Shown: positions 3,940 through 58,262 of the stretch, one piece after another | How positions within the stretch are numbered: the stretch's first letter is position 1 | Layout: every line of letters starts with the position of its first letter | Source of the DNA: Massospora cicadina | Taxonomy: Eukaryota; Entomophthoromycota; Entomophthoromycetes; Entomophthorales; Entomophthoraceae | Length of the DNA: 64,000 bases | Assembly (NCBI GenBank): GCA_022478985.1 | Contig: JAKSZP010013605.1 | Coordinates: 1-64,000 of the forward strand | Direction: 5' to 3' | The notes under the pieces: generated by a model | Databases searched by the model: none | The model's input: only the letters and a program-made list of their open reading frames with translations | What the model was told of the DNA's origin: nothing | Program-made: the position numbers and the translations under genes

Positions 3940-3989
3940 TAAACCGTATCATCTTTTTTTAGTACTAGATGGTTAAACCGTATCATCTT
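3940..3989 (-). repeat. Ultra-short A-tailed insertion with 16-bp duplication (site 1)
   Basis: The 16-bp sequence TAAACCGTATCATCTT occurs at 3940-3955 and again at 3974-3989. Between them are 18 bp (3956-3973) which on the minus strand read ACCATCTAGTACTAAAAA. The corresponding place in element G (about 54300-54330) has no such sequence. The same unit occurs at four other places in the window. It interrupts element A between RNase H and integrase, so it is younger than A. Confidence 0.85.
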
Positions 3990-4530: not shown

Positions 4531-4535
4531 CTTCT

Positions 4536-6202: not shown

Positions 6203-6205
6203 CAG

Positions 6206-6577
6206 TTAAGATAAGATTACATTCACTGGGGAACCTGTATCCAGGATAGCCATCACTTGAACTTTGTGAACAACTACTTCAACCTTGGTAAGTGTGTTTC
6301 CAAAGTTGGCCGACAGCGCTAAGACCTCCTTAAGATGAAAAGTGGATGTTAATTTGCGTGCGGTCTCAGGGTGAGTCTCTAGAATAGACTGCATGGTATG
6401 CCCTCGCTGTAAAGGGCGAATTAAGCTCGATAGGAGCTGATCAGCGTCACTGGCTGTGTCAATAATTGCCATACAACCTATAACTTGGCGGAGGTAAGTA
6501 TCCTCAGGTATGGTGGTTTCATACAATCCTTTGGCGTTTAGGCGATCAGGGACCTCCACTTCCGCGGGAGCTCTCAA
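6206..6577 (-). pseudogene. Aspartic protease region of element A
   Basis: This 123-residue open stretch ends in VMAILDTGSPVN, the D-T-G active site of retropepsin-like proteases that mature Gag-Pol. The catalytic Asp is intact. It overlaps the end of the preceding gag-side stretch (6574-6888) by a few bases in another frame and is followed by the spacer at 6202. It could belong to a Gag-Pro-Pol polyprotein made by frameshifting, but decay of this copy makes that uncertain. The matching Asp is changed to Tyr in element G and the motif is altered in E. Confidence 0.75.
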
Positions 6578-13157: not shown

Positions 13158-13172
13158 AGTATGCATTTTGGG
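13158..13172. repeat. Target site duplication of LINE-1, left
   Basis: AGTATGCATTTTGGG, identical to 18437-18451. Removing LINE-1 and one copy rejoins the RT of element D across the M-x-FG motif. Confidence 0.92.
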
Positions 13173-13266
13173 GACTTTTCTCTCTCATTGCAATCACTTT
13201 TGCAACTTATTCAATTTAAGTCTAAATCTAGTTAGATAATCTCACAGAGGAGATTAGTCTGCGCCC

Positions 13267-14690: not shown

Positions 14691-17600
14691 CTTTAGGGAC
14701 ATTGAATATCGCCGGACTCAAGGCCTCACCATCCCAGGCTAGGAAACTGAGTTTTTTACAAAAAAATTTACCCGTGGATATCCTGGCCATCCAGGAGTCC
14801 CACTGTCCGCAAGGTTCCAAGGATGCTTGGAAAACCATGCTCCTCACTTCCCTATCCTTTTGGTCAGAGCATTGTGGGGTGCTAGTTCAGTCTAACTAAT
14901 TTTTATAAATTTTTATCATCAGAATCCTTCCTCAATAACCAAGTCCTCATTGTCACTTTCTCATGGGCTGATGTGGCGCATGCTATCATCAACATCTATG
15001 CCCCAACCTGTGCACAAGAGCGCCAGCAATTTTTCTTGTCAGTCAAATCCCTCCTGTTACCCTCAGACCCTTTTGTAGTCGGTGACATGAACTATTGGCT
15101 AAACACACCCACGGACCGTTGGCCTTCCTCCTCCCATGCCCTAGGGTCACGTAGAACTTCGCATTTTAAATGCCACCCTTGGGTTAATAGATGTGCTGCC
15201 ATGGCAAGCCCTGCTGCTCGAAAAGATGACGCGCCCCCATGTCCACAACAGCCAACTAAGGCCAATGACCTGCATCGATCTTATCTTCATGCCAGAGAAA
15301 TTCCAACCTCACATTTCCCACTTTTAAACAACAAAAATTGAATTCTCCAACCACTGGCTGGTCTTGATAACCAACCACCTACCTGTCACAGTGGCTAAGG
15401 CCCCACATTGGTGCAAAATCCACCCTCCCGAACTTGCGTCACCAGGATTTTCCACTTGGGTGGAACCAGTAACTTTGGCAAAAGAGTTTGTTACACCATT
15501 TTGCGCGGACCCCATCTCCACATGGTTAGCCTTCGAAGAGGATACCATCTGCCACTCTCGCCACCTCTCCTCCTGACACTCACGAGCCACATCAGCTGTC
15601 ATTTCGCGCGCTCTGGCAGAGTTGGCACACCTGAAGTCCAACATCCCAGCTACAGGCTACAGCCCTGCATGGGGCTGGAAGTGGGCAGAAGCAGCCGCCC
15701 ACCTCAACGCGCTCAAAAGGCAACACAAACATTTGGTTTGTGTTCAGTACAGGGCCAAATGCATTACAGAGGGCGATAAGTGCACCACATATTTTTTTAA
15801 ATAATTCTTTGCACCACACCAGAATATGGCCTGCACAAAGGTGCAAAGATCGGATGATTCCGTCGCAGATACAGCAGATAAAGTGGCAATAAAGATATAA
15901 AAGTATTACTCTTAGTTATACCAATCCAATCCAATTCATCTGGCCGAAGTGGCGGAATTTTTTGACCAAACCCACATCTGCACCATTTCCCAATGCCCAG
16001 AATTGATAAATTTGATTACTCCGAATGAACTCGGACAGCCATCTGTGGTGCACCAAATTGGAAATGCCCAGGCCCAGACGGCATTCCATATGAATTCTAT
16101 AAAAAGTACTTCAAATATATATCCCCACTGCTGCTTGCCTCTCTAAACTAAAACCTTCTGGAAATACGCCTCCTACCAGGAGGACAAGAGGCCCTCACTA
16201 TCACACTCTTCAAGAAAGGGGATAAGCTTTACTTAGCTCACTGGCGCCCCATTTCTTTAACTAACACGGATACAAAAAGTTTAACTAAAATCATGTCTAA
16301 CCTTTTAGGGATTGTAGCATCTGCCAGAATCTCCCCAGAACAATTCAGTTTCATACCCAGAAGGTCAATCTGGGACAACGTGCACTCTATAGCTAACGCA
16401 TGCCAGTCCACAGCCTCTGGGGCACTTGTATTCTTGGACCAACAGAAGGTCTATGATAGAGTAAACTGGGAATACCTCAGGGCCTGCCTCCATCAATTCC
16501 GCTTACACCCTCGCTTCATCAACTGGGTAATGCTGCTCACGTAATCTGCAACAATGGCAGTGCGTGGCCCTGGCTTCCTAACAGAAGTAGTCCACCCTCA
16601 AAGGGGCTTACGACAAGGGGACCCCCTTAGCCCACTCTTATACAACTTCAGCCTTGACCCACTACTTCGAAACGTGAATGCCCAGCTCACTGGGGTCCAT
16701 GTACCAGGACAAGCCCCAGTCAATATGATGGCGTTTGCAGACGACTTTATGGTTGGGGTGTCTAATAATAAGACGCACGCGCGCTTGAAGCTCTCATCCA
16801 GGAGTATTCCCTGGTAAGTAATGCTGCATTGAACGCTTCCAAAACCGAAATCATCCTCCTTGGTTGGTATCAAAACTGCTGGGCCCCAGCGACCAGTGCC
16901 CAGCCCGGCCCATCTACTCACACACGTGCTCGCCCTCCCTGCTCACCTCACACCGCCCCACTTGTGCTCCTCTTCGTGCCACTCCCTACCATAGGGCCTG
17001 TCCGCCATCTGGGAGTGTGGGTGGAGACAGGGAGGTATGCCTCAGCAGTAATATAAAACTCATATTCTAGATAACGTGAAGAAGCGTATCGCCTCCCTAA
17101 GAGCCCACCCTACTTCCCTTACTGGCAGGGTTGTTTTAGCCAACTCTATGCTCCTCTCCAAAGTCTGTTTTGCAGCCCACGCCATCCCCTTCTCCCCAGG
17201 CTTTTTCAAATCCTTGTATGCCCTTCTGCAAGGATGGCTTTGGTCAGGCCGCCCACCAGTATGGCTAGAGGTCATGTTTGTCCCTCATCATCAAGGTGGC
17301 ATGTGCCTGCTTGACTTCAAAGCCCATGCTTCCAAGATCCTGGGCACCTGGATGCGGCCATCACCACCCCTACGCTCCCCTCCCAACACTGGTCCCGCGC
17401 GGCCTGCTCCAACTTCTCCCGCGCCTTGGGCCTTAACAATCCATCGAACCTTCACTGCTTGTTGGAATACCTGGCTTCACACCCATCGGCCACAGGTCCT
17501 CACGGGACTAAAACCCACTACAAACAAATCCTCCTCTCCATGCGGAGCACTGAGTGGAGAATTTGTATTAGCGAACACACAGCCCAGAGAGGCCGCCCCT

Positions 17601-18183
17601 CTCCTCAGTTCACACATGAGGTACAGGGCTACCCATCCAAGATGGCGTGATCCCCACACGGCCCCATGTCCTATCCAGGGTGGACTACCTGGACATGATG
17701 GACATCCCTTAATCCATTGAAACTCAGAAGACTATTTAGAAATATGCACACCATCCTCTGTTGCAGCCTTAAATCTGTTCCGATGTGTGGCGCTGCCTGA
17801 GGTGGGTGTACCATATGGCTGAGCGCTCTAACGCTTTACACTCATCCTGCGTTGTGTGTAGCCAGTATGGAACGCTGTTCCACCGCATGGAGAAGTGTCC
17901 TACCTCTAGAGTGATATGGCGCGAAGTTCAACGTCTGCTTGGCCAGGATCAAACACATCATTTAATCTTTCAAGAGATATGTTTGCTTTATCAATGGCCT
18001 CCCCTTTCACCCTCCCTCTGTGCTCTGGTGGTTGCAATCGCCATGTGGACTATCCACACGATTGTCCTGGATGCCATCGAAGGCTCCACCCACACCCTCC
18101 CAGGAACTGTCCACAGATTCCGGTCTCATTTGGTGGACCACTTTCAGGCGTGGATGTTTGGATACCTCCCACTGCGTTGCTGA
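14675..18183 (+). pseudogene. LINE-1 ORF2 (endonuclease-RT), broken
   Basis: The start at 14675 gives TFTLGTLNIAGLK and DILAIQESHC, the first blocks of an APE-type endonuclease. The endonuclease continues to about 15350 (HAIINIYAPT, VVGDMNYW). RT blocks lie at 16200-17060: WRPISL-NTD, QFSFIPRRSIWDN, VFLDQQKVYDRVNWE (catalytic Asp), RQGDPLSPLLYNFSLD and MAFADDFMV (catalytic DD). The carboxy end (17785-18183) has CVVCSQYGTLFHRMEKC, the CX2CX7HX4C finger typical of L1-superfamily ORF2. At least four frameshifts or stops break it. In life it would nick target DNA and reverse-transcribe the LINE RNA in place. Confidence 0.9.
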
Positions 18184-18436
18184 CAGCTGGTCTCCTCCTG
18201 GTTCCCAGTTTGGTTCATCATATTAGACCCTTTCCTCCACACGTGTTCAATTGTGGCTACGGCCCCTTCACACGTTCCCTCCCCTCCCCATAGTGGAGTT
18301 CCCGCTGGCAACAAGAGATAGCATCGCTTCTCTGGGGTGCATTCCCTGTTACTAAGTTTTTGTTTATTTTGGGTCAAATTTGGAAGTGTCCATCCCATGG
18401 TTGGCCTTCCTCGCAATAAATTTAAATTTAAAATAT

Positions 18437-18451
18437 AGTATGCATTTTGGG
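18437..18451. repeat. Target site duplication of LINE-1, right
   Basis: AGTATGCATTTTGGG, identical to 13158-13172. Element D resumes in its RT immediately afterwards. Confidence 0.92.
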
Positions 18452-19936: not shown

Positions 19937-19954
19937 ACGCCCACCTGTTTTTAA
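19937..19954. repeat. Target site duplication of LINE-2, left
   Basis: ACGCCCACCTGTTTTTAA; the right copy at 30525-30542 differs at one base (A to G). The TTTTT-AA junction fits the preference of L1-type endonucleases. Confidence 0.9.
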
Positions 19955-20129
19955 ATTTAAATTTATTGCGGGGAAGGCCGACCATGGGACAGACACTACC
20001 GAATATGACTCAGACGAGACAAAACTTAGTACCAGGGGAGGCACCCCAGAGAAGCGATGCTATCTCTTGTTGCCAGCGGGAACGCCACTTATGGGAAGGG
20101 GGAGGGAACGTGTGTAGGGGACGTAGCCA

Positions 20130-20579
20130 CTATTGAGCACGTGTGGAGAAAGGAATCTGATTTGATGAACCAGACTGGGAACCAGGAGGAGACCAGCTGT
20201 CGGCGATGCAGTGGGAGATATCCAAACATCCACGCTTGAAAGTGATCCACCAAATGAGACCGGAATATGTGGACAGCTTCCAGGAGGGTGGGGATGGATC
20301 CAGCGATGGCATCCAAGACAATCGTGTGGATAGTCCACATGGCGATTGCAACCACCAGAGCACGGAGGGAGGGTGGGAGGGGGAGGCCATTGATGAAGCA
20401 AACATATCTCTTGACAGACTGAAGGGATGTGTTTGATCCTGGCCTAGCGAACGTTGGACTTCGCGCCCTATTACTTTAGAAGTGGGGCACTTCTCCAGGC
20501 GGTGAAACAGCGTTCCATACTGGCCACACACGACACAGGATGAGTGTAAAGCATTAGAGCGCTCAGCTGTACGATACAC
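20130..20579 (-). pseudogene. LINE-2 ORF2 carboxy-terminal zinc finger
   Basis: The stretch begins RTAERSNALHSSCVVCGQYG and contains CX2CX7HX4C (Cys-Val-Val-Cys ... His-Arg-Leu-Glu-Lys-Cys) followed by a GREVQRSLGQDQTH block. This finger closes ORF2 in L1-superfamily LINEs and is thought to help RNA or DNA binding. It is separated from the RT frame at 20735 by a stop or frameshift. Confidence 0.8.
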
Positions 20580-20734
20580 GTGCCTCAGTCAGCGCCACAC
20601 ATGGGAGCGGACTTGAGGCTGCAACAGAGGATGGTGTGCGTATTTCCAGATAGTATTTTGGGTGTCAGTGGAATAAGGGATGTCCATCATGTCCAGGTAG
20701 TCCACCCTGGATAGGACTTGGGGTCGAATGGGGA

Positions 20735-22261
20735 TCACGCCATCATGGATGGGTAGCCCCTGTACCTCTTGTGTGAACTGAGGGAGGGGCGGCCTCTTCG
20801 GGTTGTATGTCCACTAATATGAATTCTCCACTCTGCGCTTAGCATGGAGAGTAGGATTCGTTTGTAGTGGGTTTTGGTCCCGTGAGGACCTGTGGCCGAT
20901 GTGTGTGATGCGAGGTATTTCATCGGGGAGTGGGGGTTTGATGGATTGTTGAGGCCCAAGGCTCGGGAGAAGTTGGAGCAGGCCACGCGGGACCAGTGTT
21001 GGGATGGGAGTGTAGGAGCAGTGACAGCCGAAATCCAGGTGCCCAGGATCTTGGCGGCATGGGCTTTGAAGTCAAGTAGGCCCATGCCACCATGATGATG
21101 AGGGCCAAACATGACCTCTAGCCGTACTGGTGGAGGGCGGCCTGACCAAAGCCAACCTTGTAGCAAAGCATACAGGGATTTGAAGAAGCTTGGGGAGAAG
21201 GGGATGGCGTGGGCTCCGAACCAGACTTTGGATAGGAGCATAGAGTTGGCAAGAACAACCCTGCCAGTAAGGGAAGTAGGGTGGGCTCTGAGAGAGGCGA
21301 TTCGCTTCGTCACGTTGTCCAGTATATGGCACTCCATTACTGCTGACGCGTATCCACCTGCCTCCATCCACACGCCCAGATGGCGTACCGGTCCTATGGT
21401 AGGTCGTGGCACAAAGGGGAGCACCAGTGGAGCGGTGTGTTTTGAGTTAGTAAGGCGTGGATGTGGGCGAGCAGATGGGCCGGGTTGGGAACTACTTGCT
21501 GGGGCCCAGCAGTTCTGAAACCGACCAAGGAGGATGATTTCAGTTTTGGAGGCGTTCAGTGCCGCGTTGCTTACCCGGGAATATTCCTGGATGAGGGCTT
21601 CAAGCGCGCGTGCATCTTTGTTATTAGACACCCTCACCACGCAATCATCTGCAAATGCCATCATCTTGATTGGGGTTTGGCCTGGCACATGGACCCCAGT
21701 GAGTTGGGCATTCACATTTCGCAGTAGTGGGTCAAGGCTGAAGTTGTATAAGAGTGGGCTGAGGGGGTCCCCTTGTCGCAGGCCCCTTTGAGGACGGACT
21801 ACTTCCATTATGAAACCTGGACCACGCACTGCCATTGTCGCAGATTCCGTGAGCAGCATCACCCAGTTAATGAAGCGGGGAGGTAGGCGGAATTGTTGGA
21901 GGCAGGCCCTAAGGTATTCCAAGTTTACTCTATCATAGGCCTTTTGTTGGTCCAAGAATACAAGTGCCCCAGAGGCTGTGGACTGACACACATTAGCCAC
22001 AGAGTGCACGTTATCCCAAATCGACCTTCTGGGGATGAAACCAAATTGTTCTGGGGAGATGGTGGCAGATGCTACAGTCCCTAAATGGTTAGCCATGATT
22101 TTGGTTAAAATTTTTGTGTCAGTGTTTGTTAGAGAAATGGGGCGCCAGTTGGCTAAGTCAAGCCTATCCCCTTTCTTGAAGAGTGTGACTGTAAAGGCCT
22201 CATGTCCTCCTGGTAGGAGGCGCTTTTCCAACAGGCTTTGGTTGAGTGAGGCTAGCAGCAA
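20735..22261 (-). CDS. LINE-2 ORF2 reverse transcriptase segment, 508 codons open
   Basis: This is the longest open frame in the window. It carries all RT blocks: FKKGDRLDLANWRPISLTNTD, QFGFIPRRSIWDN, LVFLDQQKAYDRVNLEYL (catalytic Asp), RQGDPLSPLLYNFSLDPLL and MMAFADDCVV (catalytic DD), then the thumb and connection region (LGRFQNCWAP, RHLGVW, SLRAHPTSLTGRVVLANSML). It begins with a Met inside ORF2 rather than at the true ORF2 start, because LINE-3 has cut ORF2 upstream at 22391. The protein alone would lack the endonuclease. The catalytic residues look intact, so this RT was functional recently compared with its surroundings. LINE-3 carries a close copy at 25361-27273. Confidence 0.88.
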   Translation of the reverse strand: MLLASLNQSLLEKRLLPGGHEAFTVTLFKKGDRLDLANWRPISLTNTDTKILTKIMANHLGTVASATISPEQFGFIPRRSIWDNVHSVANVCQSTASGALVFLDQQKAYDRVNLEYLRACLQQFRLPPRFINWVMLLTESATMAVRGPGFIMEVVRPQRGLRQGDPLSPLLYNFSLDPLLRNVNAQLTGVHVPGQTPIKMMAFADDCVVRVSNNKDARALEALIQEYSRVSNAALNASKTEIILLGRFQNCWAPASSSQPGPSARPHPRLTNSKHTAPLVLPFVPRPTIGPVRHLGVWMEAGGYASAVMECHILDNVTKRIASLRAHPTSLTGRVVLANSMLLSKVWFGAHAIPFSPSFFKSLYALLQGWLWSGRPPPVRLEVMFGPHHHGGMGLLDFKAHAAKILGTWISAVTAPTLPSQHWSRVACSNFSRALGLNNPSNPHSPMKYLASHTSATGPHGTKTHYKRILLSMLSAEWRIHISGHTTRRGRPSLSSHKRYRGYPSMMA

Positions 22262-22375
22262 TGGGGATATATATTTATAATATTTTTTGTAGAACTCATA
22301 TGGAATGCCATCTGGGCCTGGGCATTTTCAGTTTGGCGCACCGCAAATGGTAGTCCATAATTTGTTCGGAGTAAT

Positions 22376-22391
22376 TAAATTCATTATTTCC
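22376..22391. repeat. Target site duplication of LINE-3, left
   Basis: TAAATTCATTATTTCC, identical to 27674-27689. The bottom strand at the left edge reads ATTT/AATT, matching the TTT/AA preference of L1 endonucleases. Confidence 0.92.
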
Positions 22392-22409
22392 AAAAGACTT
22401 TTATTTCCT

Positions 22410-22429
22410 GTTGCAAACACTTTTGCAAC
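22410..22429 (+). other. 5' UTR hairpin of LINE-3
   Basis: GTTGCAAACACTTTTGCAAC forms a perfect 8-bp stem (GTTGCAAA/TTTGCAAC) with a CACT loop, about 19 bases from the 5' end. LINE-2 has exactly the same 20 bases (complement of 30492-30511). LINE-1 has a slightly decayed version near 13187-13206. Preservation among copies suggests a role in RNA packaging, translation or 5' end formation. Confidence 0.7.
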
Positions 22430-22489
22430 CCGTATAACCCAAGACTAAATCTAGTTTGATAATCTCATAGAGGGGATTAGTCTGCGCCC

Positions 22490-23930
22490 ATGTCTGGGAG
22501 CAGTTGGGCAAGCAAGGCAAGAGGAGCAGGCGGAAGGCCCGCGGCCTCTAATGTTCGAAAATGCCCCAGAGAATCTGGCGGAATAGAAAAAAATCTAAAA
22601 AAACTGGCGGTCACAATTTACCCGGAGATACTCACGTGGCAAGCACGATGCAACCAGTACATCAACATGCCACATTCCCAGCCACTTTCGTCGGTGGAAT
22701 TTGGAGTCCGTGTGTATCTGGACATCCAAAAAACGGCCCTATGGGAAAAATTTTGTGAAGATGTATGCAAAATTTTCCCAACTGCGGTGTACATTGCACC
22801 TCACTCCATGTCATGCGGTTGGCTGGACCTAGGTTTTGAAAGCAAAATAGCAGCAGATGAGGCTGCAGCAGTGCACATAGTGGTCGACCTCCCTGAAGGG
22901 CAACGTGTCATCAAAACTAAATGCACCAGATGGACAAAATCAAACCAAATTTTCCTCACGTTTGACTTTTTGCCTACTACGGTAAAACGTGACATTTTGG
23001 AGCAACACCTGAAAGATGGTCTCGCCATATATGGCGAAATAAAATCTTTTGAAATGCAACATTTCATGCTGATGCCACACCTGTGCACTGGCAAAGCCAT
23101 CGCAGTTCTGACCTCAACCGAGGAGATCATGAAGGACCTAACCCATATCCCGCACTCCACCTTTATTGACATCGCAGGGCACACCACCCACCCATTCCAG
23201 GTAACTGTGGACAGCGCGCCCCCATTTGCACCCAATGTGACGCATTCATCCATAAGGCGCACGCATGCCTCATCAAAGAGGGCGTCACATTCCAAGAGCA
23301 CCCCTTGGCAGCCATGGCCAGCGGAGAGGTGCACTACAAACCAACTGCAAGCACCAAGGAGGCTTTCCTATGGGGAGCACAAGGCTGCTAACTATTGGTA
23401 AAGCCCATCTCCCCGCAAGAGCAGAAGAAGGCCAAGCAGGCCCATAGGACCACAGCCAAGGAAGCGGCCAAAGCCACCACCACCATCCCACACTCACAAT
23501 GCCAGGAGGACATGGAGACCTTCACGGCGGAAGCAACTCAGGAATCCATCACCCAATCAGATTGGGAGGCCCATGCCGAATGGGCCACTCAATCCAAGGA
23601 TCCGATGGGAGATTCGATCTCACCCAATCGCTGCACCCAAGCCCCGGTCAAAACTGACTTGGGATCTATCCCAACCAAAAAATTTTTTTTGCCTCACTTG
23701 ACGGTGCACCAAACTTATCCGCACTGCAAAAAATTTGTCTGATGTCAGGAAAACAAAAAGCAAAGGCCAAAGCCAACGCGACTCTTTCCGCAAAAATTAA
23801 CAAAAACCCCAATAGCGTTGCTGCTAATACCTGCGCGGCTGTGAAAGCCCGTGGGGACCTGGAAGAGGCTGGTGGGCCTGGGGGCCCACCCCTCGCACCT
23901 AAGGTGCGATGGAGGAAACCTTCACTCTAG
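22490..23930 (+). pseudogene. LINE-3 ORF1 (RNA-binding protein), two frameshifts
   Basis: The first 303 codons (22490-23401) are open from the ATG that follows GCGCCC. They start MSGSSWASKARGAGG, then have a globular domain with KTKCTRWTKSNQIFLTFDF and DILEQHLKDGLAIYGEI, probably RRM-like. The zinc knuckle seen in LINE-2 (CTHCDAIDHKAHAC) is lost here by a frameshift (text reads FAPNVTHSS). Stretches 23395-23742 and 23742-23930 continue with a Lys/Ala-rich tail (GKQKAKAKANATLSAKINKN) and end in a stop at 23930, overlapping the ORF2 start by 22 bases. It should coat LINE RNA. Confidence 0.85.
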
Positions 23931-26900
23931 GGACGTTGAATATCACCAGACTCAAGGCCTCCCTCTCCCGGGCTAGGAAACTGAGTTTTTTACAAACAAT
24001 TTACCCGTGGATATCCTGGCCATCCAGGAGTCTCACTGTCCACGAGGATCTGATTAAGCTTGGAAAACAATGCTCCTACCATCCCTATCCTTTTGGTTGA
24101 AGCACTGTGGGGTGCTAAATCAGAAAAACAGTTTTTTCAAATTTACATCTTCAGAAACATTCCTAAATGGCCGAGTGCTCATTGTCACCTTCTCATGGGC
24201 CGATGTTGCACACACAATCATTAATATTTACGCCCCAAATGGTGCACATGAGCGTCGGGAATTTTTCTCATTGGTCAAATCCCTCCCGCTACCCCCAATT
24301 CTTTCCTGATTGGCGACATGAACTGTTGGCTAACCTCACCAATGGACTAGTGGCCACCCTCACCCCATGCCCCACAGGGTCACGTAGAACTACGTGTTCT
24401 AAAAGCCACCCTTGGGTTAATGGATGCGCTTCCATGACATGCCCCACTGCTCAAAAACATGACGCGTCCCCACGTCCACAACGGCCAATTAAGGTCCATG
24501 ACCCGCATCGACCTTATTCTAGCACTGGCGAAATTCCAACCCCACATCTCCCACTTCAAAACAACAAAAATGGAATTTCTCCGACCACTGACTGGTCTCA
24601 ATAATATACCACTTACCCGTCACAGTTGCAAAGGCCCCACATTGGTGCAAAATCCGCCCCCCAGAGCTCGCGTCGCCAGGATTTTCCATGTGGGTGGAAG
24701 AGGCAACTTTGGCAAAATCGTTTGTTGCACCATTTTGCGTGGACCCCATTTCCACATGGGCAACTTTCAAAGAAGATACTATCCGCCACTATTGCCATCT
24801 CTCATCCAGATGCTCATGAGCCACATCGGCGGTTATATCATGTGCGCTGGCAAAATTGGCCCACTTGGAGTCCAACATTCCAGCCTCAGGATATAGCCCT
24901 GCATGGGGCCAGAAGTGGGCGGAGGCAGCTGCCCACCTCAACGCACTTGAAAGGCAACACAAACATCGGGTTTGTGTCTAATACAGGGCCACACGCATCA
25001 CTAAAGGTGACAAGTGCACCACATACTTCTTCAAAAATTTTTGCACCATGCCAGAGCGTGGCCTGAACACAGGTGCGAAGATCAGATAATTCTATTGTGG
25101 ACACACCGGCCAAAGTGACAATCAAAATGCAAGGATATTACTCCGAGTTATACTGAGCTGAACCAATTCAGCTGGCTGAAATGGCGGAATTTCTCGACAG
25201 AGCTCATATCAGCACCATTTTCTGATACCTGGAAATAATGAATTTAATTACTCCAAAAAAATTATGGACTACCATTCGCGGTGCGCCAAACTGAAAATGC
25301 CCAGGCCCAGATGGCATTCCATATGAGTTCTACAAAAAATATTATAAATATATATCCCCATTGCTGCTAGCCTCACTCAACCAAAGCCTGTTGGAAAAGC
25401 GCCTCCTACCAGGAGGACATGAGGCCTTTACAGTCACACTCTTCAAGAAAGGGGATAGGCTAGACTTAGCCAACTGGCGCCCCATTTCTCTAACAAACAC
25501 AGACACCAAAATTTTAACAAAAATCATGGCTAACCATTTGGGGACTGTAGCATCTGCCACCATCTCCCCAGAACAATTTGGTTTCATCCCCAGAAGGTCA
25601 ATTTGGGATAACGTGCACTCTGTGGCTAATGTGTGTCAGTCCACAGCCTCTGGGGCACTTGTATTCTTGGACCAGCAAAAGGCCTATGATAGAGTAAACT
25701 GGGAATACCTTAGGGCCTGCCTCCAACAATTCCGCCTACCTCCCCGCTTCATTAACTGGGTGATGCTGCTCATGGAATCTGCAACAATAACAATGCGCGG
25801 CCCAGGTTTCCTAACGGAAGTAGTCCGTCCTCAAAGGGGCCTGCAACAAGGGGACCCCCTCAGCCCACTCTTATACAACTTCAGCCTTGACCCACTACTG
25901 CGAAATGTGAATGCCCAACTCACTGGGTCCATGTGCTAGGCCAAACCCCAATCAAGATGATGGCATTTGCAGATGATTGCGTGGTGGGGGTGTCTAATAA
26001 CAAAGATGCACGCGCGCTTGAAGCCCTCATCCAGGAATTTTCCCGGGTAAGCAACGCTGCACTAAACGCCTCCAAAACTGAAATCATCCTCCTTGGTCGG
26101 TTTCAGAACTGCTGGGCCCCAGCAAGTAGTTCCCAACCCGGCCCATCTGCTCGCCCACGTCCACACCTTACTAACTCAAAACACACCACTCCACTGGTGC
26201 TCCCCTTTGTGCCACGACCTACCATAGGACTGGTACGCCATCTAGGCGTGTGGTTGGAGGCAGGTGGATACGCATTAGCAGTAATGGAGTGCCATATACT
26301 GGACAACGTGACGAAGCAAATCGCCTCTCTCAGAGCCCACCCTACTACCCTCACTGTCAGGGTTGTTCTTGCCAACTCTATGCTCCTATCCAAAGTCTGG
26401 TTCGGAGCCCACGCCATCCCCTTCTCCCCAAGCTTCTTCAAATCCCTGTATGCTTTGCTAAAAGGTTGGCTTTGGTCAGGCCGCCCTCCACCAGTACGGC
26501 TAGAGGTCATGTTTGGCCCTCATCATCATGGTGGCATGGGCCTACTTGACTTCAAAGCCCATGCCGCCAAGATCCTGGGCACCTGGATTGCGGCTGTTAC
26601 TGCTCCTACACTCCCATCCCAACACTGGTCCCACGCAGCCCACTCCAACTTCTCCCGAGCCTTGGGCCTCAACAATCCATCAAACCCCCACTCCCTGATG
26701 AAATACCTCGCATCACACACATTGGCCACAGGTCCTCACGGGACCAAAACCCACTACAAACGAATCCTACTCTCCATGCTAAGCGCAGAGTGGAGAATTC
26801 ATATTAGTGGACATACAACCCGAAGAGGCCGCCCCTCCCCTCAGTTCACACAAGAGGTACAGGGGCTACCCATCCATGATGACGTGATCCCCATTCGACC

Positions 26901-27273
26901 CCAAGTCCTATCCAGGGTGGACTACCTGGACATGATGGACATCCCTTATTCCACTGACACCCAAAATACTATCTGGAAATACGCACACCATCCTCTGTTG
27001 CAGCCTCAAGTCCGCTCCCATGTGTGGCGCTGCATGAGGCAGGTGTATCGTACAGATGAGCGCTCTAATACTTTACAGTCATCCTGTGTCGTGTGTGGCC
27101 AGTTTGGAACACTGTTTCACCGCCTGGAGAAGTGCCCCACTTCTAAAGTAATATGGCGCGAAGTCCACCGTCTGCTAGGCCAGGATCAAACACATCCCTT
27201 CAGTCTGTCAAGAGATATGTTTGCTTCATCAATGGCCTCCCCTCCAACCCTCCCTCCGTGCTCTGGTGGTTGA
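23909..27273 (+). pseudogene. LINE-3 ORF2 (endonuclease-RT-zinc finger), frameshifted
   Basis: ORF2 begins at the ATG at 23909 with ETFTLGTLNITRLK. The endonuclease part to about 25100 is broken into several frames (AHTIINIYAPNGAHERR, and the GDMNCWL equivalent at about 24310). The RT is open at 25361-25939 (FKKGDRLDLANWRPISL, FLDQQKAYDRVNWEYL, QQGDPLSPLLYNFSLD) and, after one frameshift near 25930, at 25933-27273 (MMAFADDCVV, RHLGVW, SLRAHPT). That stretch ends with the finger CVVCGQFGTLFHRLEKC (CX2CX7HX4C). Note GLQQGDP where the others have GLRQGDP. It should nick DNA and prime reverse transcription at the nick. Confidence 0.9.
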
Positions 27274-27673
27274 AATCGCCATGTGGACTATCCATACGAT
27301 TGTCTTGGATGCCATCGCTGGATCCATCCCCACCCTCCTGGAAGCTGTCCACAGATTCCGGTCTCATTTGGTGGATCACTTTCAAGTGTGGATGTTTAGA
27401 TATCTCCCACCGCGTTGCTGACAGCTGGTCTCCTCCTGGTTCCTAGTCTGGTTCATCAAATCAGACCCCTTCCTCCACATGTGCTCAATAGTGGCTACGT
27501 CCCCTACACACGTTCCCTCCCCCTTCCCATAAGTGGCGTTCCCGCTGGCAACAAGAGATAGCATCGCTTCTCTGGGGTGCCTCCCCTGGTACTGAGTTTT
27601 GTCTCATCTGAGTCATATTCAGAAGTGTCCATCCCATGGTCAGCTTTCCCCAAAATAAATTTAAATTTAAATT

Positions 27674-27689
27674 TAAATTCATTATTTCC
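27674..27689. repeat. Target site duplication of LINE-3, right
   Basis: TAAATTCATTATTTCC directly after the (TTTAAA)n tail. LINE-2 sequence (GGGTATTGG...) resumes at 27690. Confidence 0.92.
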
Positions 27690-29012
27690 GGGTATTGGAA
27701 AACGGTACAGATATGAGCTCTGTCGAGAAATTCCGCCATTTCAGCCAGCTGAATTGGTTCAGCTCAGTATAACTCGGAGTAATATCTTTGCATTTTGATT
27801 GTCACTTTGGCCGGTGTGTCCACAATAGAATTATCTGATCTTCGCACCTGTGTTCAGGCCACGCTCTGGCATGGTGCAAAAATTTTTTGAAGAAGTATGT
27901 GGTGCACTTGTCACCTTTAGTGATGCGTGTGGCCCTGTATTAGACACAAACCCGATGTTTGTGTTGCCTTTCAAGTGCGTTGAGGTGGGCAGCTGCCTCC
28001 GCCCACTTCTGGCCCCATGCAGGGCTATATCCTGAGGCTGGAATGTTGGACTCCAAGTGGGCCAATTTTGCCAGCGCACATGATATAACCGCCGATGTGG
28101 CTCATGAGCATCTGGATGAGAGATGGCAATAGTGGCGGATAGTATCTTCTTTGAAAGTTGCCCATGTGGATTGGGGTCCACGCAAAACGGTGCAACAAAC
28201 GATTTTGCCAAAGTTGCCTCTTCCACCCACATGGAAAATCCTGGCGACGCGAGCTCTGGGGGGCGGATTTTGCACCAATGTGGGGCCTTTGCAACTGTGA
28301 CGGGTAAGTGGTATATTATTTAGACCAGTCAGTGGTCGGAGAATTCCATTTTCGTTGTTTTGAAGTGCGAGATGTGGGGTTGGAATTTTGCTGGTGCTAG
28401 AATAAGGTCGATGCGGGTCATGGACCTTAATTGGCCGTTGTGGATGTGGGGATGCATCATGTTTTTGAGCAGTGGGGCATGTCGCGGCAGCACATCCATT
28501 AACCCAAGGGTGGCTTTTAGAACACGTAGTTCTATGTGACCCTGTGGGGTGTGGGGTGAGGGCGGCCACCAGTCCGTTGGTGAGGTTAGCCAACAGTTCA
28601 TGTCACCAACTAGGAAAGAATCAGGGGGTAGTGAGAGGGATTTGAACAATGAGAAAAATTACCGACGCTCATGTGCACCATTTGGGGCGTAAATGTTGAC
28701 GATTGTGTGTTCAACATCGGCCCATGAGAAGGTGATAATGAGCACTCGGCCATTTAGGAATGTTTCTGAAGATGTAAATTTGAAAAAACTGTTTTTCTGA
28801 TTTAGCACCCCACAGTGCTTCAACCAAAAGGATAGGGATGGTAGGAGCATTGTTTTCCAAGCTTCCTCGGATCCTCGTGGACAGTGGGACTCCTGGATGG
28901 CCAGGATATCCTTGGGTAAATTGTGTTGTTAAAAACTCAGTTTCCTAGCCCGGGAGAGGGAGGCCTTGAGTCCGGTGATATTCAACGTCCCTAGAGTGAA
29001 GGTTTCCTCCAT
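27690..29012 (-). pseudogene. LINE-2 ORF2 endonuclease part, broken
   Basis: This is the minus-strand ORF2 segment upstream of the LINE-3 insertion. ORF2 starts at the ATG complementary to 29010-29012. Open stretches read EHTIVNIYAPNGAHERR (28659-28850), FLVGDMNCWL (28329-28649) and blocks in 28025-28593 including RPYSSTSKIPTPH. These match the APE-like endonuclease order of LINE-1 and LINE-3 (sensor Asn-Ile-Tyr-Ala-Pro and GDMN catalytic block). Frame changes separate them. The RT lies at 20735-22261, on the far side of LINE-3. Confidence 0.85.
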
Positions 29013-30431
29013 CGCACCTTAGGTGCGAGGGTGGGCCCCCGGGCCCACCAGCCTCTTCCAGGTCCCCACGGGCTTTCACAGCAGCGCAGGTATTAGCAGC
29101 AACGCTATTGGGGTTTTTGTTAATTTTTGCAGAAAGAGTCGCGTTGGCTTTGGCCTTTGCTTTTTGTTTTCCCAACGTCGGACGAATTTTTTGCAGTGCA
29201 GATAAGTTTGGTGCACCGCCGAGTGGGGCAAAAAAATTTTTTTTGGTTGGGATAGGTCCCAAGTCAGTTTTGACTGGGGCTTGGGTGCAGCGATTGGGTG
29301 AGATCAAATCTCCCATCAGATCCTTGGATTGAGTGGCCCATTCGGCATGGGTCTCCCAATCTGGTTGGGTGATGGATTCCCAAGTTGCTTCCACCGCGAA
29401 GGTTTCCATGTCCTCCTGGCATTGTGAGTGTGGGATGGTGGTGGTGGCCTTGGCTGCTTCCTTGGCCGCAGTCCTACAGGCCTGCTTGGCCTTCTTCCGC
29501 TCCTGTAGGGAGATGGGCTTTACCAATAGGTAGCAGCCTTGTGCTCCCCATGGGAAAGCCTCCTTGGTGCTTGCGGTTGGTTTGTTGTGCGCCTCTCCGC
29601 TGGCCATGGCTGCTGAGGGGTGCTCTTGGAATGTGATGCCCTCTTGATGGGGCATGCGTGCGCCTTATGGTCGATTGCATCACAGTGGGTGCAAATGGGG
29701 GGCGCGCTGTCCACAGTTACCTGGAATGGGTGGGTGGTGTGCCCTGCGATGTCAATAAAGGTGGAGTGCGGGATCTGGGTTAGGTCCTTCACAATCTCCT
29801 CAGTTGGGGTCAGAACTGTGATGGCTTTGCCAGTGCACAGGTGTGGCATCAGCGTGAAACATTGCATTTTGAAAGAATGTATTTCGCTGTATATGGCGAG
29901 ACCATCTTTCAGGTGTTGCTCCAAAATGTCACGTTTTACCGTAGTAGGCAAAAAGTCAAACATGAGGAAAATTTGGTTTGATTTTGTCCATCTGGTGCAT
30001 TTAGTTTCGACGACCCATTGCCCTTTGGGGAGGTCAACCACTATGCGCACCGCTGCAGCCTCATCTGCTGCTATTTTGCTTTTGAAACCTAGGTCCAGCC
30101 AACCGCACGACATGGAGTGAGGTGCAACGTACACTGCGGTCGGGAAAATTTTGTGTACATCTTCACAAAATTTTTCCCATAGGGCCGTTTTTTGGATGTC
30201 CAGATACACATGGACTCCGAATCCCACTGACGAAAGTGGCTGGGAATGTGGCGTGTTGATGTACTGGTTGCATCATGCTTGCCACACAAGTATCTCCAGG
30301 GAAATTGTGACCACCTGTTTTTTTAGATTTTTTTCTATTCCGCTGGATTCTTTGGGGCGTTTTTGAACGTTAGAGGCCGCGGGCCTTCCACCTGCTCCTC
30401 TTGCCTTGCTTGCCCAACTGCTCCCAGACAT
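28991..30431 (-). pseudogene. LINE-2 ORF1 (zinc-knuckle RNA-binding protein)
   Basis: The start ATG is complementary to 30429-30431. A stop lies early, where LINE-3 has a CGA Arg codon and LINE-2 has TGA (just after a VWQA block, near 30280), so this copy is disabled by a C-to-T change. The next part is open (29520-30227): globular domain with KTKCTRWTKSNQIFLMFDF, then PPICTHCDAIDHKAHACPIK, an intact CX2CX4HX4C zinc knuckle. The tail (28945-29655) holds KQKAKAKANATLSAKINKN. One missing C near 29030 shifts the frame before the ORF2 overlap. This copy shows best that ORF1 ends with a knuckle and a basic tail. Confidence 0.87.
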
Positions 30432-30491
30432 GGGCGCAGACTAATCCCCTCTATGAGATTATCAAACTAGATTTAGTCTTGAATTGAATGG

Positions 30492-30511
30492 GTTGCAAAA
30501 GTGTTTGCAAC
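30492..30511 (-). other. 5' UTR hairpin of LINE-2
   Basis: The minus strand reads GTTGCAAACACTTTTGCAAC, identical to 22410-22429 of LINE-3, 14 bases from the LINE 5' end. Confidence 0.7.
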
Positions 30512-30524
30512 GAGAAAGAAAAGT

Positions 30525-41122: not shown

Positions 41123-42602
41123 ATGGAAGAAGAAATTACAGAATTTATGGAGCAACGCATTTATGATGGGCAATCTCAACAAACATTTAGGCTATTAATG
41201 TTGTCAAAGGAAAATTTCCAGAACATAACTCAAAGTATTTTCAATCAACTGAAAGTAAGTTCAAATCATGAACAGCTCTCTATAACAGGTCAAGCTGGAA
41301 CTAAAATCCTTTTTATTTAATTTACTTAAGAATCAATCTAATTGATACTATAGCAAACAGGCTGTGAAAGTGGGCGCCCTCACTGGCGTAGCAGCACAAT
41401 TAGTGGCAGCTTAACATTGCACTCATTACTAGAATTACCTTTTCTAAAGATTGATAACGTTTATGATGTGCCAATTCTTAGTGGAAACTATCTCAGATTG
41501 ATGCGACAGGGTTGAAGAAATATTGGGTTATTCTTCATAAAAGAGATTTAATGGTCCATCCAAAATACTTTGCATGATCGACTCATTCCTGAAAAAATTG
41601 AAAACAACGTGGAGACTTTTTGAGGCATCAATATCTCAGTATTTTGTGATTTGATGCAGCTACCACCAGGAAGAGAAAAATAAGTAGTCCAACAGACAGA
41701 ACGTTTACTTCCAGATATGCACTTTCAATGACTGTTAACACTAGTTGAATTTAAGGAGAACATGAGACAAAATGGTATTGCAAAATTCATTGACATTCCA
41801 AATGTACTTATAGCCAGAAAACTCACTTCAAACCACATAGCTTCGTTGATGGACAAAGTCAAAATCAACATGAATGGTTAGCTAAAACATTGATAATTTA
41901 CCCAGCCAATATACAAGCTAATGATCAAAACAGGAAAATAATGGAGAACTTTAGAAGAAGATGCATTAAAATCTTCAAGATTTGAGCACATTATTAACTC
42001 AAGGATACCACTTGACCATTGAGAGATAATGACCATTTGTATACTTTCATACCAAATGACATTAACAACACTTTAGGTTTATCAAGGATTTTTAACTATT
42101 CATTGGAGAAAAATTCTGCTGCAATTAAACATAGATATAGCCATCTAGTACTAAAAAACATAGATATAGCCAGAGCTCTTGTCAATGTAGCAAAAGGTTT
42201 TAATTGGAATCAATTGCCACAATTTTATAGAGGACAACTGTATGAGAACGACATATCATCAGTCTGAATAGACTTTGGCTGAGATGGCTCTACCATAATA
42301 CAGTTAAAAGCCATTTTATTTCCTGCACTATTCAGCTATGAAACAGCTGAGAAAATGAAGGCTTATGTAAATTTTAACATGGGCATCAACCGTCCAAAAA
42401 TCAAGGTAGCACTGTGGACTTTCCATTTGTTTATATGAGTTTAAAGCTATTTGCTGAAGGTCAAGCATATGTCAGCCTTTTCCAAGTTAAATTCTATTTT
42501 AATGGGCTTATAATCAAAGAATTGGACAACTCCAACTTAACTGCAAGAAAACCTTGCAATAATGATGCATTATCAGAAAAAGATCAAATGAGAAATCTTT
42601 AA
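41123..42602 (+). pseudogene. PIF1/Helitron-type DNA helicase relic
   Basis: Helicase motifs of the PIF1 family appear in order on the plus strand. At 41285-41310 is ITGQAGTKILF (Walker A, GxAGTGKS decayed). At 41365-41425 is VGALTGVAAQLVAA followed by TLHS (motif Ia, APTGVAA---G-T-HS). At about 41630-41685 is SVFCDLMQLPPG (motif III, GDF-QLPPV). At 42414-42602 is FAEGQAYVSLFQVK (motif VI, GQAYVALSR) followed by NGLIIKELDNSNL and KPCNNDALSEK, the usual protein end. PIF1 helicases unwind DNA; many such genes are Helitron transposase parts. The Rep nuclease region is not seen, so a host PIF1 pseudogene is also possible. Stops and a 12-bp insertion at 42144 break it. Confidence 0.75.
42127..42172 (+). 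repeat. Ultra-short A-tailed insertion with 17-bp duplication (site 2)
   Basis: AAACATAGATATAGCCA occurs at 42127-42143 and 42156-42172. The 12 bases between (42144-42155) are TCTAGTACTAAA; with the shared CCA the unit reads CCATCTAGTACTAAA. The duplicated start has TTT/AA on the bottom strand, an L1-endonuclease-like nick site. It lies in the helicase relic. Confidence 0.8.
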
Positions 42603-42639: not shown

Positions 42640-44100
42640 GTTGAGTATGTAGAAGTATAAAAGAGTTTCAAATGTAGATATAACAAATTTAGTGCAAAGT
42701 GTTTATCAAGATGTATATAAGTGACAAGAATTTTTTTTGCTAATTCACAGTTGTATTTTAAAAGTCTAAAACTTTACTTTTTCATTATTCTTAACAATTA
42801 AATTTTGAATAATTTTCTTAATTTTTATAAATATATGAGAAAACATATAGTGGTATCTTTTAAATTCCAAATTAACCTACTAATTAAACTTAGGCAGTCC
42901 ATAATAAAATTTAAATAAATTATGATCAAAAATTAGAAAATAAAAAGGTAAGCTTTTTAAACTTGCTTTTCCTAAGGTAAAATTAAAAATAAAAGATAAA
43001 AAAATAAGAAGTAAACAAACAAAATTCAGACAAAAAAGGAACACTAAAAAGTAAAAAAATTTCTTTGTCATGTATTACTTTAGAATTTTTATGTTAGTCT
43101 GACTAAAAGAAAAGAAGGCGTATACACTTTGTATGATTGTACGCAAAATTATATGTAAGTGCAATTTATCTATATATAACCACAGATGAATATACATATA
43201 TGCATATAAAATCTCATATATATATTTTAACATAGGATGTTGTATGGACGATAATGTTTACAACACATTGTATTACAATTTATACATTGTAAATTTTTAC
43301 ATACTTTGCATACATATTATATGCAAGTGTGAACGCCTTGCTTTTCATGCGGTCACACATAATAAAATTTTAAAGTAATTACTTAACAAAAGAATGTGAA
43401 TACTTTTAATTGCAACTTTTTGTTTGAAAATTTGTTTTTTAATTTAAACTTTGTATTAATTTACTTTTTTTCTTTTTATTAAAGCAAGGGTTCTATTTTT
43501 TTAATTGTTTAATTCGTTGGTTTAATTAATTCTTAGCTTAATGATTACCATTCATTTATTTATATAGGGCTAAAATATTTGATTAGATTTTTTTGATAAA
43601 TATAAACTTGAGAAACACTAAGCAGATTATAATAAAAAGGCTCACATAGTTGTAAAACAGGCACTTGAATCTTTTTTAATTGATTTCTTAGAAAATGCCT
43701 ATGAACAAAGAACCTCCTTGCCAAATTTCAAATTCTAAGCTTATATTATTCAAGAGATAGATGATGACAATCAGCTTTTATACATAATAAGGAGTTTTTT
43801 ACAATTTTGTAGTTACAAGCAGTTTTTTAAAAAGCTTACCTACTTAATAACCTAACATTTAAGAGGCACATGTATATTAGATTTTGCATAAATAGATATT
43901 TTTATGAGAGTAATATTTTTTTAGTTTTTATATATAGTTTAGATAGTTTGAAATTTTTGTCGTTGTTGAGAGATATGTTTGACCAACCATATAACATCAA
44001 ATCCTATAGAACAGTCCAAAGCCTTATAGACCTAATCACTGCTTACCCAAACTTTTATGACTATAGGTACTGACAAAGATTACCTCACCCCACCATCTGT
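42640..44100. other. Very AT-rich gene-free block
   Basis: About 1.4 kb of strongly AT-rich sequence, with runs such as TATATATAACC, ATATACATATATGCATATA and TTTTTTCTTTTTATT. No open stretch resembles a known family, and no repeat ends or RNA genes were seen. Composition differs sharply from the neighbouring elements. Confidence 0.6.
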
Positions 44101-44635: not shown

Positions 44636-44689
44636 AATGATACTTAAGAATTACCATCTAGTACTAAAAAAAAATGATACTTAAGAATT
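44636..44689 (+). repeat. Ultra-short A-tailed insertion with 17-bp duplication (site 3)
   Basis: AATGATACTTAAGAATT occurs at 44636-44652 and 44673-44689, perfect. Between them are exactly 20 bp, ACCATCTAGTACTAAAAAAA (44653-44672). This is the cleanest example of the family. It lies in the probable 5' LTR of element F. Confidence 0.9.
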
Positions 44690-53189: not shown

Positions 53190-54330
53190 GGGATAAAGCC
53201 AAAGGCATCGGCCATGTGCTTGGTTAATGGTGATTCCAGTAGCTAATGATTTTATAGAGTATTCATTACCTTTTTTGTAGGTGATGGTTAAGGGACCTTC
53301 TTATCTTGATCAAGCTTACCTCTTCTAGGAGTGATGCAGTTATGGTAAGTAATACCATGTCAGATACTTGGAATGTAGGTAGGGGAGTTCTGAGTTCATT
53401 GGCTGCCTGCCTTTCTTTTGTCACTGTTTTTGCTAACTTAGTCATTGCCTCTGATTGGAGCTGGATGATGTGTTGAGCCAATAATCTAATAACTTTCTTG
53501 AGCTCTTCAGCTCTAGAGGAGAATACATCCCTAACTAAGAGAGCAGGTATTCCTGGCTCTCACCAATACAAGACATGAAATGGGTAAATTTTCAATACCT
53601 GGTAATAATTAATCCAGTAGGTCATAAGGGCACTAGGTAAGAATTGATCCCAGTGAAGTGGATCAGAAGAGGCCATTTTTCGTAGGATGGATACCAGGGT
53701 ACCATTTGCTCTCTCCATAGTTCCATAGGTAGTGGGATTATATGGAGCTAAGAAAAAGTTGTGCTCCCATAAAGGTTGCCAGTACCTTACTACTCAGGAG
53801 GTGAATTTCTTCCCATTGTCGCATAGTAGACTTGGGGACAGTCACATCAAGAAAATGTTTTGATGTAAAAAGGTGACTGTGGCCTTGGCCGTTTGAGCAT
53901 GAAGAGCCACGGCTTCCACCCACTTAGTGAAATGGTCAATAGCTACTAGTATAAATTTGTTTCCACTAGTTTTCTGAGGAAGAGGACCTACTACATCCAA
54001 ACTAATGGTGTGGATCGGTTGTTGGTGTAGTGGGTTGATATTGGTATCTAGTCTTGAAACCAGATTGCTTCTTAAACGTAATGCAAGCTTCCAAGACATA
54101 AACAATTGATTCCATCATTCCATCCCAATAGTATCGATCCTTAATCCACTTGTACATTTTCTTCGCCCCTCCATAACCTAGAATGGAGTGAGCTTCTAGG
54201 ATAATGGGTACATGTTATGAGGTCTAAAAGTAAGGCAGTCACTTTGCCCTCATATGTTTATACAACTTCCCATCCTCCACTTTTGTGTTGTGGGAATGCC
54301 AGGATAACATATACTGGATGGGCTCATCCT
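53190..54330 (-). pseudogene. Integrase of element G, broken
   Basis: The stretch 53842-54105 reads HQQPIHTISLDVVGPLPQ (first catalytic Asp) and AIDHFTKWVEAVAL. The DNG block (second Asp) near 53815 and the VERANGTL-type block near 53700 are decayed. The stretch 53266-53481 gives QSEAMTKLAKTVTKERQAAN and LPTFQVSDMVLLT, the C-terminal domain start. Several frameshifts. Compared with A the core is similar, with more stops. Confidence 0.8.
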
Positions 54331-54882
54331 CATCCTCCCATTCATTTGGGGTCATTAATCGATCATGTAATCTCTCAGCCTCACTGTTATCCAAATGAAG
54401 GACTGGCAGCCTTGTCAACCCATCAACATTAAAGTGATGGGTCCCAGCATGGTGTTCAGTCTTCATATCGTAAGGCTGGTGCTTTGGAGCCCAATAAGCT
54501 AACCAGCCAGTAGGGTTCTTCATGTTTTGTAACCATTTTAATGAAGAGTGATCCATAAACACAGTTAAGGCATCCCATATAAAAAAGGGCGTTAGTGCTT
54601 CACAGCTAACAGAATAGCAAGGCACTCCTTCTCAGTTACACTATAAATGCGTTCCGCTTTTGACAGCATCTTACTGAAATAGGATACTAGATGATATACA
54701 CCATTTTCATCTAATTGGACTAAGATGGCCCCAACGGCATAGTCTGAAGCGTTGGTAAACAGGATAAAATATTTTTTGTAATCTGGGTATCTCAGGACTG
54801 GACGTTGTTGTATGAGTTGTTTTAATGTCTCAAAAGTGGCTTTTTGTTCTGCACCCCAATAGAAAGGGGTGTTCTTAGTCAA
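54239..54882 (-). pseudogene. RNase H of element G, one frameshift
   Basis: Two overlapping stretches (54592-54882 and 54239-54625) give the full domain: FYWGAEQKATFETLKQL, FILFTNASDYAVGAIL (the usual catalytic Asp, D-A-S, is Asn here), VSYFSKMLSKAERIYSVTEK (catalytic Glu), VFMDHSSLKWLQNMKNPTGW and the NVDGLTRLPVL block. The loss of the first Asp would kill activity. Confidence 0.82.
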
Positions 54883-55083
54883 TAAGCGAATGGGTGGTTC
54901 TTTGAGCTAGGCAAATATGGGAATATTGATGGTAATACCTCAAGATCCCTAGAATTTACCTGAATATCCCATAAATTCTTAAGGGAGGCATTTTCGAGAT
55001 TGCTTCAACCTTATCTTGAATGGGTTGGATTCCTTTTCTGGGAAATGAAGTGTCCAAGGAAATCCAATTTATTTTTTGAAGAA

Positions 55084-55129
55084 GGTACACTTTGAAACCA
55101 TCTAGTACTAAAAAAAGTTACACTTTGAA
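55084..55129 (+). repeat. Ultra-short A-tailed insertion with 13-bp duplication (site 4)
   Basis: GGTACACTTTGAA (55084-55096) and GTTACACTTTGAA (55117-55129) flank 20 bp, ACCATCTAGTACTAAAAAAA (55097-55116), identical to the insert at 44653-44672. The same point in element A (about 4735-4750) and element C (about 163-175) is uninterrupted, giving empty sites. Confidence 0.88.
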
Positions 55130-57946: not shown

Positions 57947-58262
57947 TTCTTTATTTGATAGGACTAAAGGGACTTCATAGTTAAGCAGCGATAGGAAAAC
58001 TTGATTCATATTAATTATTCCCTCATACTCAAACATAAACTGATTGCTGATGAGCATATCATATGCATTATTGTTTAAAGCCGCAGTAGGGCAGATAGGA
58101 TAAGCTTCCCAATTTGAATGGGAAGGAAAGAGTATTCCCTAATAGCACGAGTATTGTTGGGACTGCGGTTAAAAATTTTTTAGTACTAGATGGTCCCAAC
58201 CCAAGGGTGCGGTTACAAATTTTGTTGTACAATAACTCAGGTGCTAGCTTAATCTTCTGATA
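57947..58262 (-). pseudogene. Protease-RT spacer of element G, part 2
   Basis: Continues the spacer after the solo LTR: on the minus strand a LILSA-like and YDMLISNQF-type block can be read at about 57990-58110, equivalent to 1289-1600 of C. An ultra-short insertion (58180-58207) lies in it. Confidence 0.65.
58164..58223 (-). repeat. Ultra-short A-tailed insertion with 16-bp duplication (site 5, longest)
   Basis: TGCGGTTAAAAATTTT (58164-58179) and TGCGGTTACAAATTTT (58208-58223), one mismatch, flank 28 bp (58180-58207). On the minus strand these begin CCCTTGGGTTGGGA and continue CCATCTAGTACTAA. It therefore gives 10 bases more of the source sequence than the 18-20 bp copies. Elements A and C have no such insertion here. 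Confidence 0.85.

Follow-up and report, generated by a model that had tools for sequence, protein, structure and literature searches.

Five very short A-tailed insertions with target duplications in a 64-kb window of Massospora cicadina DNA

Target-primed reverse transcription (TPRT) leaves well-known products: 5′-truncated LINEs of the L1 clade and SINEs alike carry an A-tail and a constant 3′ end, and lie within target duplications of 15–17 bp that start in A-rich sequence. SINEs are, in addition, non-coding, present in several copies and presumably moved in trans by LINEs. Five insertions with these properties occur in the window, that is, the whole stretch of 64 kb (43% GC) that was analysed. 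Unlike truncated LINEs and SINEs, however, their bodies measure 12–15 nt (28 nt in one), three of the five share a start, and no longer copy is present in the window. A SINE is recognised by a pol III promoter or by a head derived from tRNA, 5S or 7SL RNA, neither of which is found in the inserts; their 12–28 nt are too short to hold an internal pol III promoter, so that an inserted copy would be most unlikely to act as its own master gene. An earlier note on this DNA, made from the sequence alone, had called the insertions unlike ordinary SINEs.

Two further systems invite comparison. The WEIRD/MINE chimeric retrogenes of Magnaporthe, as described in part of one report, likewise arise when LINE machinery takes up a single, strongly expressed non-coding RNA again and again at particular positions, and they too are flanked by direct repeats, of 10–20 bp; those described there are LINE or SINE fusions, whereas no fusion partner is visible here (PMC2104539). 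Tailless tRNA retropseudogenes, in the account excerpted from another source, are also retrocopies of small RNAs with target duplications, but they lack an A-tail and are 3′-truncated, whereas the present inserts have an A-tail in five of five cases and a constant 3′ end (PMC2912911). Among the open-licence literature matches listed, neither the core as a named element nor a family of 12–28 nt inserts with a repeated start was found; matches to a 12-mer of the core fell in papers that, by title, concern fission yeast, S. aureus and a cyanobacterium. What would be new is not the TPRT product as such, but a family seen only as 12–28 nt inserts with a repeated start, in five copies within one window.

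The five insertions (S1–S5) are set out in Table 1. All five places named in the earlier note proved real and lie where it had put them, each within its own direct repeat; by the boundaries used here the repeats are 15–17 bp, and not 13–17 bp as had been proposed. The duplications are unrelated in sequence, as the note had also stated, and the first two bases beside the A-tail are AA in every case.

Table 1. Positions of the five insertions and their target duplications in the window. Sequences are in element sense; A's assignable to either tail or target were given to the target when boundaries were set.
Feature	Position	Strand	Sequence and remarks
S1 target duplication, A-side copy	3940..3955	-	AAGATGATACGGTTTA; identical to 3974-3989 (16/16)
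S1 insert	3956..3973	-	ACCATCTAGTACTAAAAA; 18 nt, five A's between ACT and duplication; host is degenerate Gypsy-like pol sequence
S1 target duplication, 5′-side copy	3974..3989	-	AAGATGATACGGTTTA
S2 target duplication, 5′-side copy	42127..42143	+	AAACATAGATATAGCCA; final CCA could equally be insert
S2 insert	42144..42155	+	TCTAGTACTAAA; 12 nt (15 nt counting shared CCA), three A's
S2 target duplication, A-side copy	42156..42172	+	AAACATAGATATAGCCA; 17/17
S3 target duplication, 5′-side copy	44636..44652	+	AATGATACTTAAGAATT
S3 insert	44653..44672	+	ACCATCTAGTACTAAAAAAA; 20 nt, seven A's
S3 target duplication, A-side copy	44673..44689	+	AATGATACTTAAGAATT; perfect (17/17)
S4 target duplication, 5′-side copy	55082..55096	+	AAGGTACACTTTGAA; one mismatch to 55115-55129 (14/15)
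S4 insert	55097..55114	+	ACCATCTAGTACTAAAAA; 18 nt, five A's; host is degenerate Gypsy-like sequence
S4 target duplication, A-side copy	55115..55129	+	AAGTTACACTTTGAA
S5 target duplication, A-side copy	58164..58179	-	AAAATTTTTAACCGCA; one mismatch to 58208-58223 (15/16)
S5 insert	58180..58207	-	CCCTTGGGTTGGGACCATCTAGTACTAA; 28 nt, two A's; core plus 13 extra 5′ bases; Gypsy-like host sequence
S5 target duplication, 5′-side copy	58208..58223	-	AAAATTTGTAACCGCA

The inserts had been portrayed as constant at the A-side and variable at the other. Constancy at the A-side holds in all five, but the 5′ side is less variable than that wording suggests: S1, S3 and S4 begin at the same base, the A of ACCATC, and S2, in which CCA is common to insert and target, is ambiguous and could begin at the shared base too. 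Only S5 starts differently, with 13 additional 5′ bases (CCCTTGGGTTGGG); with three identical starts, one ambiguous and one longer, five copies are too few to describe a spread. No substitution was found in 74 core bases (71 if the CCA of S2 belongs to the target), which bounds divergence below about 4% (95% bound). The insertions may thus be younger than their host elements, whose relatives diverge by 26–33%, although so few bases date poorly.

The hosts themselves provide sites without the insert. The sequence around S1, S4 and S5 is Gypsy-like, and relatives 67–74% identical to it are present in the window. Once the insert and one duplication are removed, S1 aligns to a relative at 54017–54630 without a gap at the site, S4 to relatives near 11–479 and 4452–5053 with a 1-nt gap some bases upstream, and S5 to relatives near 1350–1885 and 5926–6463 with a 3-nt gap. 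The insert is thus absent from the relatives at all three comparable sites; S2 and S3 have no relative within the window. The claim of separate A-tailed insertions is thereby borne out by an A-run at five of five sites and by empty sites for three of the five.

Statistical support for the family comes from exact matches. The 14-mer CCATCTAGTACTAA followed by an A-run occurs in five exact copies, against 0.0008 expected in the window from base composition, and the 15-mer ACCATCTAGTACTAA in four against 0.0002, the count being four and not five because the first base of S2 is a G from the target. Allowing up to three mismatches to the core added three matches, and this total of eight was reached by 17 of 100 shuffles; the signal thus resides in the exact matches, and the mismatched ones, considered as older, decayed family members, were rejected as chance-level.

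The duplications were compared with those around other A-runs. Both strands together have 919 runs of at least four A's. Two of these, at the ends of the window, were left out, as were 390 for which the best repeat was built from fewer than three kinds of base (the longest being 9); apart from the five sites, 522 runs remained as controls. No exact flanking repeat in the controls exceeded 12 (two runs), none of the 522 thus reaching 13 bp, whereas the five sites gave 17, 17, 16, 11 and 8. The scan accepted exact repeats only; with one mismatch, the two shortest become 14/15 and 15/16, so that S5, whose exact repeat is 8, passes only on those terms. Outside the window, six exact core matches were found, five in viral contigs (with a 16-mer) and one in a bacterial MAG contig (with an 18-mer, among genome contigs), all with flanking repeats of 4–7 nt; a 16-mer of the S5 extension had no match in the viral contigs. 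These collections are viral and prokaryotic, and uninformative on the host genome. Because both the A-run controls and the outside matches have short repeats only, the duplications belong to the insert family and not to the 14-mer or to A-runs as such.

Scans that were blind to the core led to the same sites. Exact direct repeats of at least 11 bp within 220 nt numbered 15, or 14 after a low-complexity filter, and three of the four that reached at least 16 bp were S1, S2 and S3. Inexact repeats within 200 nt numbered 27 in the window, against 4–15 in eight shuffles; five of these were the S1–S5 family, of which the A-tail flag caught three. As possible further micro-insert families, the flagged stretches 43404–43452 and 42302–42452, AT-rich and with mismatches, were judged by eye to be chance. 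A scan for A-tailed elements of up to 9 kb, which required an exact 12-bp repeat, listed S1, S2, S3 and the LINE termed LINE A as the only known cases; by eye, the rest of its rows were taken for different sorts of repeat. The short-direct-repeat scans of the window brought up no second A-tailed insert sequence that was convincing. What looks like a local tandem duplication lies at 2404–2532, where direct repeats of 13 bp and of 16 bp interlock; 58–62 nt separate the copies, and there is no A-tail.

Could the family itself be a product of chance, tandem duplication or assembly error? The sequence comes from one assembly, and tandem-like repeats do occur in the window (2404–2532); against this stand five identical 14-base cores within unrelated duplications, as well as the relatives without the insert, which leave an artefact scarcely credible. 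The observation of five tiny A-tailed insertions with target duplications is thus confirmed, and the interpretation originally placed on it is partly supported.

The best reading of these five copies is TPRT, to which three features point together: duplications of LINE size that vary slightly in length, an A-tail adjoining the AA of the target, and the absence of the insert from relatives. The likeness in duplication length asserted in the earlier note stands, LINE A having an exact 15-bp duplication and the remaining LINEs of the window similar ones when read by eye. Duplications of full-length L1 peak at 14–16 bp in the portion of the source that treats them (PMC2912911).

A route without reverse transcription, in which a captured DNA oligonucleotide fills in staggered breaks or long target duplications are made by a small DNA transposon, would also yield direct repeats, since fill-in of staggered ends likewise produces them, and TAGTACTA within the core is a palindrome. 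Such a route sits poorly with duplications varying from 15 to 17 bp, with an A-run that differs in length but never changes sides, with targets that all begin with AA and with the lack of inverted termini visible by eye, and it is regarded as very improbable. The palindrome itself, perfect over eight bases (within 3959–3972 and the four other cores), would allow two template RNAs to pair together.

The window contains LINEs with a strong reverse transcriptase match and a zf-RVT match below its cut-off, together with degenerate LTR-element pol sequence in which integrase, RNase H and reverse transcriptase matches occur; elements of this kind make a eukaryotic origin likely. In calling them L1-like and Gypsy-like we give our reading of the putative encoded proteins and not a database assignment; no relatives of one LINE protein and one Gypsy-like protein were found in the viral contigs. 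A plus-strand LINE at 13158–18451 has a 15-bp duplication, AGTATGCATTTTGGG, and TTTAAA repeats in its tail. Within 19950–30524, minus-strand pieces at about 19950–22390 and 27680–30520 look by eye like one element, split by a second, plus-strand LINE with a duplication near TTAAATTCATTATTTCC.

A link between the inserts and these resident LINEs, which the note had drawn, was not demonstrated. The LINE tails are of the (TTTAAA)n type (AATAAATTTAAATTTAAA-type), the core is absent from the LINEs, and their 3′ ends match the inserts no better than random DNA. In local alignments to the three LINE 3′ ends, the 15-mer scored 16 at best, reached by 6% of 2000 random segments, and the S5 28-mer scored 18, reached by 13% of 2000. 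A resident LINE as parent was accordingly rejected, as was CTGGTACTAA in LINE B, suggestive by eye but unproven. The 64-kb window yielded neither a source RNA nor a longer parent element nor a poly(A) LINE, which counts against the reading preferred below, and it contained no tRNA genes or Rfam families at gathering score. Mobilisation by the resident LINEs is possible, with another LINE that uses poly(A) as likely. As for the source RNA, a spliced leader and a tRNA fragment were considered as possible origins, and the reverse complement may resemble 5S rRNA.

Within TPRT, the question is why the inserts are so short and so often alike. Very short LINE copies are to be expected from TPRT. If the parent were a common LINE or SINE outside the window, truncated at its 5′ end in the ordinary way, the shared start would be coincidence or a mild hot spot; the greater length of S5 would suit this view. 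The start of S2 at a 3-base homology (CCA) with the target also fits, such microhomology being rarer in full-length than in 5′-truncated human L1 copies in the excerpted analysis (PMC2912911). Truncation, however, predicts scattered starts, whereas three of the five coincide (a fourth being compatible and one different), all five bodies are shorter than 30 nt and no longer core copy exists in 64 kb. The variable 5′ side, read in the earlier note as a mark of ordinary truncation, is not supported as one, and this explanation is unlikely. Nor did homology choose the start, if S5 shows the template: the target base before ACC is A, T and A in S1, S3 and S4, whereas S5 has G, with GGGTTGGG directly 5′ of ACC.

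An end or a block met by the polymerase is therefore indicated. We infer one template with a repeated cDNA end, due either to a stop at a G-tract immediately 5′ of ACCATC or to an RNA of only about 15 nt plus A's. From five copies in one window, we give roughly an even chance to TPRT in which the cDNA usually ends at one point, the likeliest cause being that a longer RNA contains a barrier there. A LINE-type endonuclease would nick a strand ending in TT, and the RNA would anneal to these T's through its A-run. The cDNA would then extend over the A's and the final 15 bases (ACCAUCUAGUACUAA) and would usually stop at the same point; it would next be attached to the opposite strand of the target, with the 15–17 bp duplication arising on repair. 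The candidate barrier is the GGG just 5′ of ACCAUC in S5, part of CCCUUGGGUUGGG, which could stall reverse transcriptase, for example as part of a G-quadruplex; the extra bases of S5 would on this account have been copied from the template. In experiments covered in part of one source, human L1 ORF2p in vitro gave mainly short products on L1 3′ UTR RNA, of the length made from a template without the G-quadruplex region (PMC10830416).

Support for the barrier is thin, the G-tract being taken from a single copy. The S5 RNA folds poorly, at -3.8 kcal/mol with a 3-bp stem, a stability equalled or surpassed by 197 of 200 shuffles; it has two G-triplets, as against four in an intramolecular quadruplex. 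The nicked primers would end, by the boundaries used here, in two T's at S1, S3 and S4, three at S2 and four at S5, which counts against TPRT at such a barrier, given that efficient human L1 priming is associated with four or more matching bases in the portion of the source concerned (PMC3649969).

A dedicated short template, an RNA of about 15 nt plus A's (a leader, or a small RNA made by processing, that acquires an A-tail) of which every copy reaches the 5′ end, is appreciably less probable than a barrier in a longer RNA, but deserves weight. Copies that reach the end of a template would start exactly at the A of ACCATC, as three of the five do, and the want of a second convincing A-tailed insert sequence in the short-direct-repeat scans also fits; no such RNA was identified. 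The 13 extra bases of S5 would then be untemplated or flank-derived filler. GTTGGGAC, at 58156–58163 directly outside the S5 duplication, recurs inverted in the extra bases and the start of the core. Given this inverted match, the extra bases might be junction filler; the match covers eight bases, a length equalled or exceeded in 202 of 5000 random flanks (about 4%), and 7 of the 13 bases are left unexplained. The extra bases may also be a snap-back copy of the flank; the 8-base match on which this would depend is real, but the same figure applies to it.

Returning to TPRT with a repeated cDNA end, a tentative proposal, to which we give somewhat less than an even chance, is that these inserts represent a micro-retroposon family in which an A-tailed RNA of about 15 nt, or an RNA in which a strong stop lies 15 nt before the tail, is a preferred LINE template that seeds inserts of fixed size. 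If the window is typical, their density would be about one per 13 kb. Because retroposons are annotated by their bodies and 12–28 nt are easily missed by repeat finders, such inserts could be common in genomes and yet have gone uncounted. If the product is indeed fixed at 15 nt, hardly any cDNA need be made for TPRT to reach completion and leave a normal target duplication. This would be relevant to the second half of LINE integration, which is poorly understood, and would point to a feature of the RNA at which LINE reverse transcriptases halt in vivo.
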